Assembly: GCF_013912065.1 (NCBI RefSeq) | Contig: NZ_JACESA010000008.1 | Location: 1-64,000, forward strand | Origin: Brevundimonas sp. | GTDB taxonomy: Bacteria; Pseudomonadota; Alphaproteobacteria; Caulobacterales; Caulobacteraceae | Reading direction: 5' to 3' | DNA: 64,000 nucleotides | Shown here: positions 10,624 through 16,017 of the stretch, piece after piece | Layout: each line of letters starts with the position of its first letter | How positions within the stretch are numbered: position 1 is the first letter of the stretch | The notes under the pieces: model-generated | Database searches by the model: none | What the model was told of the DNA's origin: nothing | Seen by the model: the letters and a program-made list of their open reading frames with translations, nothing else | Made by a program: the position numbers and the translations under genes

Positions 10624-12426
10624 TTACAGCGGCAACCGCAGCTGGATTCCGCCCATGTGGCTGTCGGCGTGTTCGCCGTAGCGGCCGCGATAGGCCACCG
10701 TCACCTTGACCGGACCCAGCGAGCCCTCGACCCCGGCCGAGGCCAGGAACTGACCGCCGAAGGGCTCCTCGACCTCACGCTCCAGCACCTGGGCCGGGTT
10801 GTTGTAGATGCCGACGCGCACCGGATCGGAACTGTCATCCAGCGCGTCACGATAGCCGCCCTCGGCGAACAGGCCGAAGCCGCCCATCTCCGCCTCGGCC
10901 CGTAGAGCGACCTCGCCGGTGATCGCCTTCATCTCGCGGTCCTCGTATTCGTACTGGGCCGCGACGCCCTGCTCGTAATAGCCGTCGACGTCGCTTGTGG
11001 CCCAGGTCACGGCGGCGCGGGGCGACAGGGCCACCCCGCCCATGTCGAACCACATGCCCCCCTGGAGGCGCGCGCCGGTGCTGAAGGCCCGGGTATCAGC
11101 CGTATGGACGATGGGGGCGAGGCTGGTCAGACGTTCGATGTCGTCGATATTGTCCCGCGCCACGCCGACGGCCGCATTGACGAAGGCGCCGCCGGACCGC
11201 CAGCCGCCGTACAGATCCAGGCCGAAGCTTTCGACGGTGAAGGTCAGGGCCTGGCTTTCGACGTCGGTCTTGCGCGCCGTCCCCGCCATGCCGAACCGCC
11301 AGGTCTCCGACGGTCCCGCCTCCAGCGCGATCCGTGCGCCCCAGCCGTCGCTGGACGACTCGGTCACGGAATCACGGGCGTCCGTATCGACGCTGTCGAT
11401 CATAGCCGACGTGGTGATTGAGACGCCGGCTTCCCAGGCTTCGCGGCCGGACAGGGCCTCGCCGGCCGCGTCCAACGCATCCTCGCGGTGCCGGAAGGCG
11501 GTCTCGCCCTGCAGGGCCGACTGGGCGCCGATGTCGCCGTAGTACAGATAATCGGTCGCCAGACGGGCGATGATCTGGTGCCCGGTCGCGGTCGGGTGAA
11601 CCCCGTCGAAGTAGAAGTAACTGCTCGGGTTCGAACAGACGGTCACTCCGTTGAAACAGGCCTGGGTGACGTTGGTCACGCCGAACTGGCCCGGATTGGC
11701 GGCCAGGGTGTCGCCGACCTTGAACAGGTCCATCATGATGATGTTGCTGCCGGGACGGGCCGCCGCCGTGGTGTTCAGCCCCGTCAACAGGGCCGAGTTG
11801 AAGGTCGTCACCGCATAGTCGGCCAGGGGCGCCGCCGTCGTGCCGGCGAACTGCGGCGTCAGGCTGAGCTTGGGCAGATTGGTGACCAATATGGTCCCCG
11901 CCCCCGCGCCGGCCACGCTGTTGACCAGGCTGGTGATATTCGCGGCGGCGGTCGTGGCGACAGGGGTGATGGCCGCGACGGGACTGGACGAGGCGCCGGC
12001 GGCGGGCAGACCCTGGAAGATGTCATTGGCCCCGCCCAGGACGCTGACCAGGTCATTGGCCCCGAAGGTCCCGCCCCGGCTGGTATAGGCCGCCAGCTGG
12101 CTCAGCATGCCGGGCGGCGGTCCCGCCGATGTGTCGGTGCGGGCGCCGCCGAAGGCGTAGTTGATGCTGCCGCTGACAGCGCCGGTGAAATTGACCGCGT
12201 TGAAGCCCAGAAGTTCGGTGAACACCGGTCCGCTGGAGAATCGCCCCTGATAATAGGGCGCGGGCGTCTGGGCGCCGCCGGTGGCCAGAAACAGATTACC
12301 GTTGTCGCTGAGGCTGTCGCCGAAAACGACAAGCCGATCATAGTCCTGGGCAGTGGCCGAGCCCGCAAAGGCGCAGGCGGCGACGACCAGCGCGGCGAGG
12401 GCGCCGCCGGTGAGATAGCGTGACAT
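10624..12426 (-). CDS. Autotransporter GDSL/SGNH esterase
   Basis: The 600-residue protein starts MSRYLTGGALAALVVAAC behind a GGGAGGAAAC site and has a signal peptide ending near ATAQD. The passenger is an SGNH hydrolase with block I FGDSLSDNG, the asparagine of GGANDIF and the catalytic pair in DGVHPTATGH. From about residue 330 a type V autotransporter beta-barrel follows, rich in alternating strands and ending in QLRLPL. Such enzymes (EstA-like) sit on the outer membrane and hydrolyse lipids or esters. The gene appears monocistronic, between a convergent GGDEF gene and the serB-serA fusion. Confidence 0.92.
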   Translation of the reverse strand: MSRYLTGGALAALVVAACAFAGSATAQDYDRLVVFGDSLSDNGNLFLATGGAQTPAPYYQGRFSSGPVFTELLGFNAVNFTGAVSGSINYAFGGARTDTSAGPPPGMLSQLAAYTSRGGTFGANDLVSVLGGANDIFQGLPAAGASSSPVAAITPVATTAAANITSLVNSVAGAGAGTILVTNLPKLSLTPQFAGTTAAPLADYAVTTFNSALLTGLNTTAAARPGSNIIMMDLFKVGDTLAANPGQFGVTNVTQACFNGVTVCSNPSSYFYFDGVHPTATGHQIIARLATDYLYYGDIGAQSALQGETAFRHREDALDAAGEALSGREAWEAGVSITTSAMIDSVDTDARDSVTESSSDGWGARIALEAGPSETWRFGMAGTARKTDVESQALTFTVESFGLDLYGGWRSGGAFVNAAVGVARDNIDDIERLTSLAPIVHTADTRAFSTGARLQGGMWFDMGGVALSPRAAVTWATSDVDGYYEQGVAAQYEYEDREMKAITGEVALRAEAEMGGFGLFAEGGYRDALDDSSDPVRVGIYNNPAQVLEREVEEPFGGQFLASAGVEGSLGPVKVTVAYRGRYGEHADSHMGGIQLRLPL

Positions 12427-12549
12427 ATGTTTCCTCCCACGACCGTCGTGTATCGCGGCCGTTACACGGGAGGATGCGCCACTTTGCGGCGAGCGCAAGA
12501 TGCCGTTAGGTCAGCCTTCGGACGTTTTCTCCGTCGGGCTGTCTTCGCC

Positions 12550-14442
12550 CTAATGCAGCGTCCGGAACTTCAACGTGCCCGGCACGGTCTTCAACGCCCG
12601 CAGAGCCTCGGGGTCGTAGTCGCGGTCCACGTCGGTGATGACATAGCCGGTGCGTTCGTCGGTCTTCAGGTGCTGGCCCAGGATGTTCAGACCGGCGGCG
12701 GTCAGGGCGCGGTTCAGTTCGGCCAGGACACCCGGCTGATTCCTGTGGATGTGCAGGATGCGGTGGGCGCCCGAGACCTCGGCCAGCTGCACGTTCGGCA
12801 GGTTGACGCTGAAGGTGGTGTCGCCCCGGTTCAGATAGCCCAGCAGACGCTCGGCCGCGAACTCGGCGATGGCCTCCTGCGCCTCCTCGGTCGAGCCGCC
12901 GATGTGGGGCGTCAGGATCATGTTCTTCAGACCCTGCAGCGGGCTTTCGAACGGATCGGCGTTGGTGCGCGGCTCCTCGGGGAAGACGTCCACGGCCGCC
13001 CCCGCGACACGGCCCGACCCCATGGCCTGGGACAGGGCGCCGACATCGACCACGTGGCCGCGCGACAGGTTCAGGAACAGCGCCCCCTCCTTCATCCGAG
13101 AGAACTGGGCGGCGCCGAAGACGCCGGCGTTTTCCTTGCGGCCATCGACGTGCAGGGTGACGACATCGCTCTCGGCCAGCAGGGCGTCCAGCGACCGCAT
13201 GCGCCGGGCGTTGCCCAGGGCCAGCCGTTCCGACAGGTCGTAGAAGACAACCCGCATGCCCAGGTTCTCGGCCAGGACCGACAGCTGGCTGCCGATGGCG
13301 CCGTATCCGACGATCCCCAGGGTCTTGCCGCGCAGTTCCTTGGAGCCGGTGGCCGACTTGTTCCATTTGCCGACGTGCATGGCCGCCGACTTGTCCGGCA
13401 CGTCGCGCATCAGGACGATCATCAGGCCGATGGCCAGCTCCACCACCGAACGGGTGTTCGAATAGGGGGCGTTGAACACCGCCACCCCGTGGTCGGAGGC
13501 CGCGTCCAGATCGATCTGGTTGGTGCCGATGCAGAAGGCGGCGACGGCCATCAGCCGGTCAGCCTCTTCCAGCACCCGACGGGTCACGGTGGTCTTGGAG
13601 CGGATGCCCAATACATGGACGCCCTTGATGGCGGCGATCAGATCGTCCTCGTCCAGGGCGCCCTTGACCGTCTCGACCGAATAGCCGGCCTCCTCCAGCC
13701 GTTCGACGGCCGTCGGGTGGATGTTCTCGAGCAGCAGCATCTTCATGCGGCTGCGCGGGAAGGACCAGCGGCCGACCAGGCCCTCGGCGTGCAGGACCTC
13801 GTCCAGCGAGGCGGCCTCGGCGTCGGCGACCTCGACCACCGGGGCGCGGCGGGCGACCTCGGTGAAGGCGTAGAAGGCGTCCGCGGCGCCGGCCAGCTTG
13901 ACCTCGGCATCGTTCCAGCCGTCGCCGATCATCACCACGCGGCCCGACAGGTTCAGGCCATGGATGACGGCCGGCTTGCCGTCGGCGTGGGACAGGGGAT
14001 TGGCGTCGTCCACGCCGGTCACGCGGCCGTCGACGTCATAGATCAGGTCGTTGCACAGCACCCGGTCGGGCGACACGCCCAGCTCCTCGGCGACCGGCGC
14101 GATGATCTCGCGGAAGCCGCCGGACAGGATGACGACCTTGCCCTTGTGCTGCTGGAAGAAGTTCAGGTTGCGCCGGACGGAGGCGGTCAGGAGGTCCGGC
14201 GCCCGCTGAGCCAGGGTCGCGACATGATCGCGGGTCAGGGGCAAGAGGGCCAGGCGCCGACGCAGGGCGTCGCCGAACTCCAGCTCGCCAGCCATGGCGC
14301 GGTCGGTCAGGGCGGCGATCTCGGCGCGGATCGGACCCGCGTCCGCCGAGTCCGCCAGGGCGATGTCGGCCAGGGCCTCGAGGGTCTCGAAGGCGACCAG
14401 GGTCGAATCGAAGTCGAAGATCAGTGTGGGGCGCGCGCTCAT
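12550..14442 (-). CDS. Phosphoserine phosphatase - phosphoglycerate dehydrogenase fusion (SerB-SerA)
   Basis: One uninterrupted 630-residue frame joins two serine-pathway enzymes. Residues 1-225 are a HAD phosphatase of the SerB type: the nucleophile motif DFDST at 10-14, SGGF near 107 and GDGWNDAE near 173. From about residue 233 (MKMLLLENIHP) a D-3-phosphoglycerate dehydrogenase follows, with the NAD loop GIVGYGAIGS, the catalytic TPHIGGST histidine and a C-terminal ACT-like domain (about 555-630) expected to sense serine. SerA does the first and SerB the last pathway step; the middle enzyme SerC is not in this window. The linker is short and no internal start with a ribosome site is obvious. 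Confidence 0.93.
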   Translation of the reverse strand: MSARPTLIFDFDSTLVAFETLEALADIALADSADAGPIRAEIAALTDRAMAGELEFGDALRRRLALLPLTRDHVATLAQRAPDLLTASVRRNLNFFQQHKGKVVILSGGFREIIAPVAEELGVSPDRVLCNDLIYDVDGRVTGVDDANPLSHADGKPAVIHGLNLSGRVVMIGDGWNDAEVKLAGAADAFYAFTEVARRAPVVEVADAEAASLDEVLHAEGLVGRWSFPRSRMKMLLLENIHPTAVERLEEAGYSVETVKGALDEDDLIAAIKGVHVLGIRSKTTVTRRVLEEADRLMAVAAFCIGTNQIDLDAASDHGVAVFNAPYSNTRSVVELAIGLMIVLMRDVPDKSAAMHVGKWNKSATGSKELRGKTLGIVGYGAIGSQLSVLAENLGMRVVFYDLSERLALGNARRMRSLDALLAESDVVTLHVDGRKENAGVFGAAQFSRMKEGALFLNLSRGHVVDVGALSQAMGSGRVAGAAVDVFPEEPRTNADPFESPLQGLKNMILTPHIGGSTEEAQEAIAEFAAERLLGYLNRGDTTFSVNLPNVQLAEVSGAHRILHIHRNQPGVLAELNRALTAAGLNILGQHLKTDERTGYVITDVDRDYDPEALRALKTVPGTLKFRTLH

Positions 14443-14518
14443 GGGCGGCGTCTTAACCGCCTTCGCGGCTGCGGCAAAGCCGAGCCTTGCTGATGAAGGG
14501 GCTCAGCTGCGCTTAAAC

Positions 14519-14557
14519 CTTGCCGCTCGCCGGAAGTTTCGCCCGGCGAGCGGCAAG
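14519..14557 (-). terminator. Terminator-like hairpin after the SDR gene
   Basis: A perfect 15-bp stem (14519-14533 with 14543-14557) lies six bases beyond the SDR stop on the minus strand. Only a short TTT follows, so it may stop transcription or protect the 3' end; it also insulates serB-serA from the SDR gene. Confidence 0.65.
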
Positions 14558-14562
14558 AAATA

Positions 14563-16017
14563 TCAGAACCGGGCGATGCGGCGCACGTGGCTGTCAGGAC
14601 GGCGGCTTTCCAGAACGGCCGCACCGACAGCGGCCGCGATGGTGGCGACCGCCAGCAGCGCCCCGCCCTCCCGGACATGACCGCGCGCATAGGCGCCGGC
14701 GTCGTCGGCATAGCGGCGGGCGGCCCGGCCTTGCTTCTTCAACGCCTTTTTCGAGCCCTTGCGCGCGGAGCGGAACCATTCATCGGCGCGATCGCGGGCG
14801 TCCTCGGAAAAGTCGGCGGCGCGATAACGGGCCTCGCGCGAGAAGTCGCCTGCTCGCTCGCCCACATCCTGGGCGAGGTCCGACGCGCCGTGGCGGAAGG
14901 CGTCGACCGCGTCCTCGAACCGGTGACGAAGGGCGCCTGCGTCGACCCAGCCGCGCGGATCGACGCGGGTCTTTATGCGCTGGTATCGGGTCGGGCCGCT
15001 GCGTTGCGACAGATAAAGGGCCAGGCCGACGCCGGCCAGAACGGCGGCCAGGGTGCCGGCGCTGACGCCAGGATGTTTGCGGACTTCTGCCAGGGCGCTG
15101 AAATTGCGAACCATCGGATAGTGAACCTCTTCATCCAGGCCGTCTTCGGTGGGATCATAAAGCCCGTCGTCATACGGCTGATAGGCGGAACGACGGTCCC
15201 GCATCAGCGAAGGAGCGAACCGCGCCAGAAGTGGTTCCGCCATTCCCGGCAAAGCTGAATACAGGGACGCTATGACGCGCCCTCCCCCGCCCACGGTGAT
15301 CTCCCGGATCGGATGGGTGGCGCAATACAGGATGGTGTCCGCCACCACATGGGTCGCATAGACCGGCTGGGGATTATGCACCGCCTGACCGGTCAGATTG
15401 CGGGCGTGACGGGTGTAGGGGGTGTCGATCGCCCCCGGCTTGACCAGGCTGACGGCGACCGGCGACTGTTCGCGCAGCAGTTCGATCCGCAGGGCGTTGG
15501 TGAACCCCTTCACCGCATGTTTGGACGCCGCATAGATCCCCTGGACCGGCAGGGGCAGATCCGACAGGATCGAGCCGACATTGATGACGGCCCCGCCGCC
15601 GGGTCGCGTCCGCAGATGTTCGACCGCCGCCAGGGATCCGTTGACCACGCCCCAGTAGTTGGTCTCGAACAATCGGCGCTGGTCCTCCAGCGTCGTCTCG
15701 CGGATCGGACCGAACAGGCCGACGCCGGCGTTGTTGACCCAGGTGTCGAAGCCGCCGAACAGACGCACGCATTTCTCGGCCGCCGTCTTCAGGGCCTCGG
15801 CGTCGGACACGTCCGCCGCCGCCCAGGCGACGCGCGATCCCTGCGCCTGCAACTCTTCGCACAGCGCCCTCAGATCCGCCTCACCTCTTGCGATCAGGAA
15901 CACCCTGGCGCCCGCCCGCGCCGCCCGACGCGCTGTCGCCAGACCGACGCCCGACGTCGCGCCGGTGACGACGATACACTGCTGACCCAGCGGCTTTAGA
16001 ACAGGTTTCGCGGGCAT
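14563..16017 (-). CDS. SDR oxidoreductase with C-terminal membrane and helical tail
   Basis: Residues 1-260 form a classical short-chain dehydrogenase: the nucleotide motif TGATSGVGLATA, the NNAGVG motif and the catalytic YAASKHAVKG. The protein continues to 484 residues, twice the length of a simple SDR. A membrane helix occurs near residue 320 (TLAAVLAGVGLALYL), followed by a long charged helical region with heptad-like RYRAADFSEDARDRADE segments, then a second hydrophobic helix (GALLAVATIAAAVGAAVL). The tail resembles DUF883/YqjD-like membrane-tethered helices. The enzyme is thus probably held at the inner membrane; its substrate is unknown. Confidence 0.85.
   Translation of the reverse strand: MPAKPVLKPLGQQCIVVTGATSGVGLATARRAARAGARVFLIARGEADLRALCEELQAQGSRVAWAAADVSDAEALKTAAEKCVRLFGGFDTWVNNAGVGLFGPIRETTLEDQRRLFETNYWGVVNGSLAAVEHLRTRPGGGAVINVGSILSDLPLPVQGIYAASKHAVKGFTNALRIELLREQSPVAVSLVKPGAIDTPYTRHARNLTGQAVHNPQPVYATHVVADTILYCATHPIREITVGGGGRVIASLYSALPGMAEPLLARFAPSLMRDRRSAYQPYDDGLYDPTEDGLDEEVHYPMVRNFSALAEVRKHPGVSAGTLAAVLAGVGLALYLSQRSGPTRYQRIKTRVDPRGWVDAGALRHRFEDAVDAFRHGASDLAQDVGERAGDFSREARYRAADFSEDARDRADEWFRSARKGSKKALKKQGRAARRYADDAGAYARGHVREGGALLAVATIAAAVGAAVLESRRPDSHVRRIARF

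Follow-up and report, generated by a model that had tools for sequence, protein, structure and literature searches.

The window analysed here is a 64,000-nucleotide stretch of DNA from Brevundimonas sp. (contig NZ_JACESA010000008.1, positions 1 to 64,000), and its minus strand carries at 12550..14442 a gene in which serB-like and serA sequences are joined in a single open frame. This frame begins with ATG and comprises 630 codons without internal stops, and its extent is supported by matches in the genus as well as by Pfam and NCBIfam models. The encoded protein consists of a SerB-like HAD-IB phosphatase half (13783..14442, minus strand, residues about 1-220; Pfam, NCBIfam and alignments), a junction (13747..13782, minus strand, residues about 221-232), the SerA catalytic and NAD domains (12730..13746, minus strand, residues about 233-571) with the putative catalytic set R461/E490/H513, and a SerA C-terminal ACT domain (12553..12759, minus strand, residues about 562-630) with the putative serine-site residues H566, N568 and N586. 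Pfam placed HAD (PF12710) at residues 8-179, 2-Hacid_dh (PF00389) at 236-547, 2-Hacid_dh_C (PF02826) at 338-515 and ACT_AHAS_ss (PF22629) at 562-624.

The junction is short, with the phosphatase domain extending to about residue 220 and homology to SerA starting at about residues 225-229, and it is conserved among the fused members. G224, R225, S227, P229, R230 and S231 are invariant in a 10-row alignment (A2), and the first five of these residues are conserved at ≥90% in a 75-row alignment (A3). Two methionines, M233 and M235, sit at the junction of the window protein, and an internal start yielding free SerA was considered. This candidate was set aside; M is found at position 233 in 27 of 73 rows of A3 and at position 235 in 35 of 71. 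Such a start therefore lacks general conservation, although it may be used in this genome.

The length of the frame is in itself weak evidence for a gene because the DNA is GC-rich and a 688-aa frame overlies the locus on the opposite strand. A search with the whole protein gave matches in all 121 genomes of the genus. The match was full length, beginning no later than residue 5 and reaching residue 629 or 630, in 115 of these genomes at 68-94% identity, a count that includes the own genome at 100%. Partial matches were obtained in the other six genomes. Those of G022, G039 and G058 start at contig base 1-13, those of G005 and G105 are in pieces, and that of G100 covers residues 372-630 only. 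We also scanned named contigs with the phosphatase half and kept 80 loci of 178 relatives. At all 80 loci the phosphatase half continues into SerA in a single open frame across the junction; 76 are full length, L099 falls a few residues short of that, and a contig end truncates L123, L139 and L149. By title, 62 of the loci are from Brevundimonas, and most of the others are from Caulobacteraceae, Caulobacterales or Alphaproteobacteria bins. One locus (L123) is from a Bordetella bin, where a 3.5-kb contig ends within a Brevundimonas-type fusion; this contig is probably misplaced. Comparison with six relatives, using the Nei-Gojobori method on equal-length pairs, gave ratios of nonsynonymous to synonymous substitution (dN/dS) of 0.12-0.36 for the phosphatase half and 0.045-0.18 for the SerA half, indicating that purifying selection acts on both. 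These results confirm that the fusion frame is genuine and not an assembly artefact. They bear out the first-pass annotation, which had described both enzymes in one frame and had argued against a pseudo-fusion, as the full-length matches in the 115 genomes contain no stop.

On the C-terminal half, the NCBIfam model NF008759 for E. coli-type SerA scored 637.9 bits (cut-off 404), covering residues 225-629 and model positions 4-409 of 410. Alignment with E. coli SerA (L237) gave 51% identity, with R240, E269 and H292 of the E. coli enzyme falling on R461, E490 and H513, which we take to be catalytic, and H344, N346 and N364 falling on H566, N568 and N586, presumably the serine site. All six residues are unchanged in the 73 rows of A3 that have the position. 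One departure from E. coli SerA is the replacement of R62 by K283. The likeness to the E. coli enzyme (PRK11790/NF008759 type; PDB 1psd, 1yba and 2p9c) thus extends over the whole C-terminal half, including the catalytic and serine-site residues, whereas the E. coli protein is 410 aa long and lacks a phosphatase domain. By these sequence features, residues about 225-630 make up a complete 3-phosphoglycerate dehydrogenase (PGDH) of the E. coli type with an ACT domain. An AlphaFold model built with the 10-row alignment had low confidence in the SerA half (mean predicted local distance difference test score, pLDDT, 64.4), and the 75-row alignment raised this value to 89.7. The matches listed from Foldseek and VIA searches with the whole model all concern the SerA half, and the phosphatase half is assigned from sequence.

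The phosphatase half passed the cut-off of the HAD-SF-IB model TIGR01488 (68.6 versus 45 bits). When a profile of this half was searched against the PDB, phosphoserine phosphatases came out on top (E values of 6.4e-37 to 7.3e-37), and 1f5s, which we take to be the M. jannaschii enzyme, matched at 3.8e-19. When the window's own protein sequence was used in place of the profile, phosphoserine phosphatases shared the top rank with 3kd3, a 'phosphoserine phosphohydrolase-like protein'. In the alignments with a solved phosphoserine phosphatase (numbered as in the presumed human enzyme), D20, D22, E29, M52, F58, R65, S109, K158, D179 and D183 correspond to D10, D12, E19, M50, F56, R63, S107, K156, D174 and D178 of the window protein, and R202 falls on or beside R199. 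D10 and D12 lie in the motif DFDST. The substrate-binding and catalytic roles of these positions are assumed from phosphoserine phosphatase structures. The positions are conserved in a further alignment (A1) as well as in A3. D10, D12, E19, M50, R63, K156, D174, D178 and R199 are unchanged in all 71 rows of A3 that have the position, F56 is kept in 70 of 71 (L in one), and S107 is kept in 69 of 72 (T in two, N in one). Retention of the key residues of both halves in the alignments to E. coli SerA and to the solved phosphatases agrees with the earlier statement that both sets of catalytic motifs are intact. The N-terminal domain therefore resembles phosphoserine phosphatases (1nnl and 1l8l, presumably the human enzyme, and 1f5s) in its HAD-IB domain and aligned active-site positions; the solved enzymes differ in being free-standing proteins of 211-225 aa. 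Together, these data point to a phosphoserine phosphatase.

Other serine genes of the own genome were sought by family-model searches of its 45-contig assembly. PF02826 gave 13 matches, four of them strong, and the fusion gene was one of the four. The other three strong matches are proteins of 308-333 aa that fall below every cut-off shown, including those of both PGDH models, so no second SerA over the family cut-off was found among the four strong dehydrogenases. A search with the serB model TIGR00338 at E ≤ 0.001 gave no match besides the fusion gene. C34, a TIGR01490 HAD-IB hydrolase without a serB match at 1e-10, scored highest on the general HAD model (104.3 bits, versus 62.9 bits for the fusion protein). 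SerC (TIGR01365, 477 bits) is encoded separately on contig C45, adjoining purA. According to these family models the fusion is the genome's sole SerA and SerB; the separate serA and serB genes whose presence had been left open at first pass were not found.

We next consider how widely the fusion occurs. In a sample of 199 genomes of the family, a match across both halves, the kind that ranks first among the matches listed, was present in 68 genomes from 5 of 22 genera: 39 of 40 from the window's genus, 25 of 25 from g14, 2 of 2 from g3, and the single genomes of g7 and g9. The two genomes of genus g17 (G136 and G149; loci L073:2978-4890 and L074:1679-3591) have separate serB and serA genes with a 4-base overlap (TTGA), in which the TGA stop of the phosphatase frame overlaps the TTG of the SerA frame and AGGAAGG lies shortly upstream. 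This overlap sits where the junction lies in the fused genes. The TTG is the first possible SerA start in G136, and an earlier GTG is also available in G149. The remaining 129 genomes consist of G202, from the window's genus, and 128 genomes of 16 other genera; among the matches listed from these 129 genomes, the dehydrogenase identity was 34-39%. In the two of these genomes that were examined, G190 and G125, a longer SerA is encoded directly behind serC.

Samples from the order, class and phylum extended this comparison. A phosphatase profile applied to the order sample identified a separate phosphatase relative in 29 genomes of family f4, none of which was fused. In 15 of the 29, an E. coli-type SerA is encoded within the 1.5-2 kb flank, always on the other strand in a tail-to-tail arrangement (L185, L188, L191, L255, L256, L258, L262, L265-L271 and L275), and in the other 14 no SerA was seen within that flank. 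In the class sample, 11 of 385 genomes, three of them from the window's genus, had a phosphatase match at 1e-20. One distant class member with a 1.7-Mb genome (G562, L192:1474-3401) carries serB and serA on one strand with a 4-base overlap, like g17. In G511 a weak match to the SerA C-terminus lies just ahead of the phosphatase. In the phylum sample a phosphatase match at 1e-15 was found in 130 of 398 genomes, and SerA was not seen beside the phosphatase at 24 new loci (L200-L223) or in five long-frame rows (L276-L280). The first-pass annotation could not tell how widespread the fusion is, and this is now answered in part: within the family sample it occurs in 5 of the 22 genera, and none of the loci opened outside the family, in the samples of the order, class and phylum, showed a fusion. 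A separate observation concerns a Caballeronia sequence (L236:307-1509) that carries the PLSDB label ADC-222 beta-lactamase at 100% identity, yet matches SerA along its length; the label is probably wrong.

Phylogenetic trees were used to examine the origin of the fusion. In both the SerA tree and the joint tree, a single clade (100/100) unites the fused genes with the split ones. The phosphatase tree is less clear, with outgroup rows sharing an open fork with fused rows. The split genus g17 is nested among the fused genes, and support for this placement is modest (SerA tree, 92/88; phosphatase tree, 89/89). The fusion would probably have arisen when an adjacent serB-serA gene pair was joined. 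At five loci of the fused lineage (L081 and L226-L229) serC is followed by purA, and in G190 and G125 serC is followed by a long serA. Precise loss of an old serA from a serC-serA-purA cluster was considered and set aside, as purA was not found in 6-kb stretches of G190 and G125.

Our favoured model, which we hold to be very probable, is that a single bifunctional protein replaces separate SerA and SerB enzymes and that its SerA half is feedback-inhibited by serine. The C-terminal half would oxidise 3-phosphoglycerate to 3-phosphohydroxypyruvate, the separate SerC would transaminate this product to phosphoserine, and the N-terminal half would hydrolyse phosphoserine to serine. Serine binding at the ACT domain would then inhibit the SerA half by feedback, as in E. 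coli. Most enzyme fusions join consecutive steps of a pathway, which invites channelling as the reason for the fusion. Here steps 1 and 3 are joined and step 2 is skipped, so the fusion cannot be explained simply by direct channelling from one half to the other. The main benefit of the fusion is probably that equal amounts of both enzymes are held on one, presumably tetrameric, scaffold.

Several observations weigh against this model. TIGR00338 scored 91-94.5 bits on the SerB half and thus missed its cut-off of 144.15. Residue 177 is N in the window protein, whereas the aligned solved phosphatase has T; among 71 rows of A3, T occurs in 47, N in 22 and G in 2. In G239 (g14; L079 near 4865) the frame starts at residue 13 and the earlier residues lie in another frame; this copy may be broken, or the sequence may be wrong. 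G202, although 99% complete, has neither a SerA above the cut-off nor a phosphatase half at 1e-20, and serC is present; loss, with possible serine auxotrophy, or an assembly gap could account for this. Finally, in the joint tree an alternative with all fused genes in one clade survives the approximately unbiased (AU) test (p 0.426), such that an ancestral and a secondary split state are not distinguished; either a single fusion of an overlapping pair or a later return of g17 to the split state would fit. The frame break in G239 and the long opposite-strand frames at the locus might suggest an annotation or assembly artefact, or a pseudogene. We consider the probability of this to be negligible given the stop-free full-length matches in the genus, the continuity of every named locus and the purifying selection on both halves. 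The missed TIGR00338 cut-off is a weak negative because the model exceeds its own cut-off in 7 of 14 well-known control genomes. As the strict SerB cut-off is missed, we infer the complete phosphoserine phosphatase claimed at first pass, and the substrate of this half, from its residues and its nearest solved relatives. The half might act mainly on another substrate, such as histidinol phosphate or a by-product formed by SerA, with phosphoserine hydrolysed elsewhere. The genome does encode other HAD proteins, including C34, which outscores the fusion on the general HAD model, and one report proposes SerB-like proteins as histidinol-phosphate phosphatases in four other bacteria (PMC5764234). 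Nevertheless, the window protein keeps the residues that align with substrate-binding positions of phosphoserine phosphatase (E19, M50, F56, R63 and R199; roles assumed as above), the TIGR00338 search found no second candidate in the genome, and several lineages have the phosphatase either joined to SerA or next to it. Another main substrate is therefore quite improbable.

The two remaining explanations concern what the joining does. The halves of the bifunctional protein could work independently, the joining being functionally idle and a neutral accident between overlapping genes. This explanation is compatible with our model, and we give it a substantial chance, well short of even. Relatives do have the pair with the 4-base overlap, and the split genus groups with the fused ones in the SerA tree and in the joint tree, where fission is not separable from ancestry. 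The presence of the fusion in nearly every sampled genome of the window's genus and in all 29 genomes of four other genera speaks against an idle joining, as does the conservation of the short junction, and neutrality is still compatible with both. Conversely, the halves could communicate, with serine at the ACT domain, or a tetramer controlled by it, tuning the phosphatase, or the protein could dock SerC. The coupling of serine feedback on SerA to SerB that the first-pass annotation had suggested would be of this kind and is a conjecture. We regard such communication as unlikely. If it did occur, entry to and exit from the pathway would be regulated as one unit with the middle step on another protein.

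PDB searches with the phosphatase half also returned 6iuy, which we take to be the bi-domain glycerol-3-phosphate dehydrogenase of Dunaliella. No report of a SerB-SerA fusion was found among the matches listed in the literature, with subscription journals scarcely covered. Fused serine-pathway enzymes and HAD-dehydrogenase fusions are already known, and the pairing of steps 1 and 3 is new as far as we have searched. According to two reports, PGDH is fused with phosphoserine aminotransferase (PSAT) in oomycetes and brown algae (PMC5715807, PMC2705460). That protein likewise is a fused serine-pathway enzyme that includes PGDH; it differs in joining steps 1 and 2, and also in partner domain and domain order. 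The Dunaliella enzyme has a SerB-like domain ahead of the dehydrogenase, and the two domains are reported to turn dihydroxyacetone phosphate into glycerol (PMC3633914). It shares with the fusion described here an N-terminal SerB-like HAD domain before an NAD-dependent dehydrogenase, although the dehydrogenase and the pathway are different and the steps are consecutive. The fused gene, the overlapping pair, the tail-to-tail pair and the long SerA behind serC provide a natural comparison for asking why a fusion is maintained. The fusion also matters for annotation, as a best-hit procedure could name one half only and make serB seem missing from fusion genomes; the GapMind paper describes this problem in general terms (PMC7311316). 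Public annotation may already carry the fusion unremarked under one name.

A scan of 12440-14700 for promoters and terminators gave nothing above chance (no promoter-like sequence, and one terminator-like sequence versus a shuffle mean of 1.0). The downstream neighbour at 10624-12498 on the minus strand is a GDSL esterase autotransporter. Flanking genes are kept near the fusion among the 80 named loci, with SDR at 75, Hsp33 at 76 and the GDSL autotransporter at 70.
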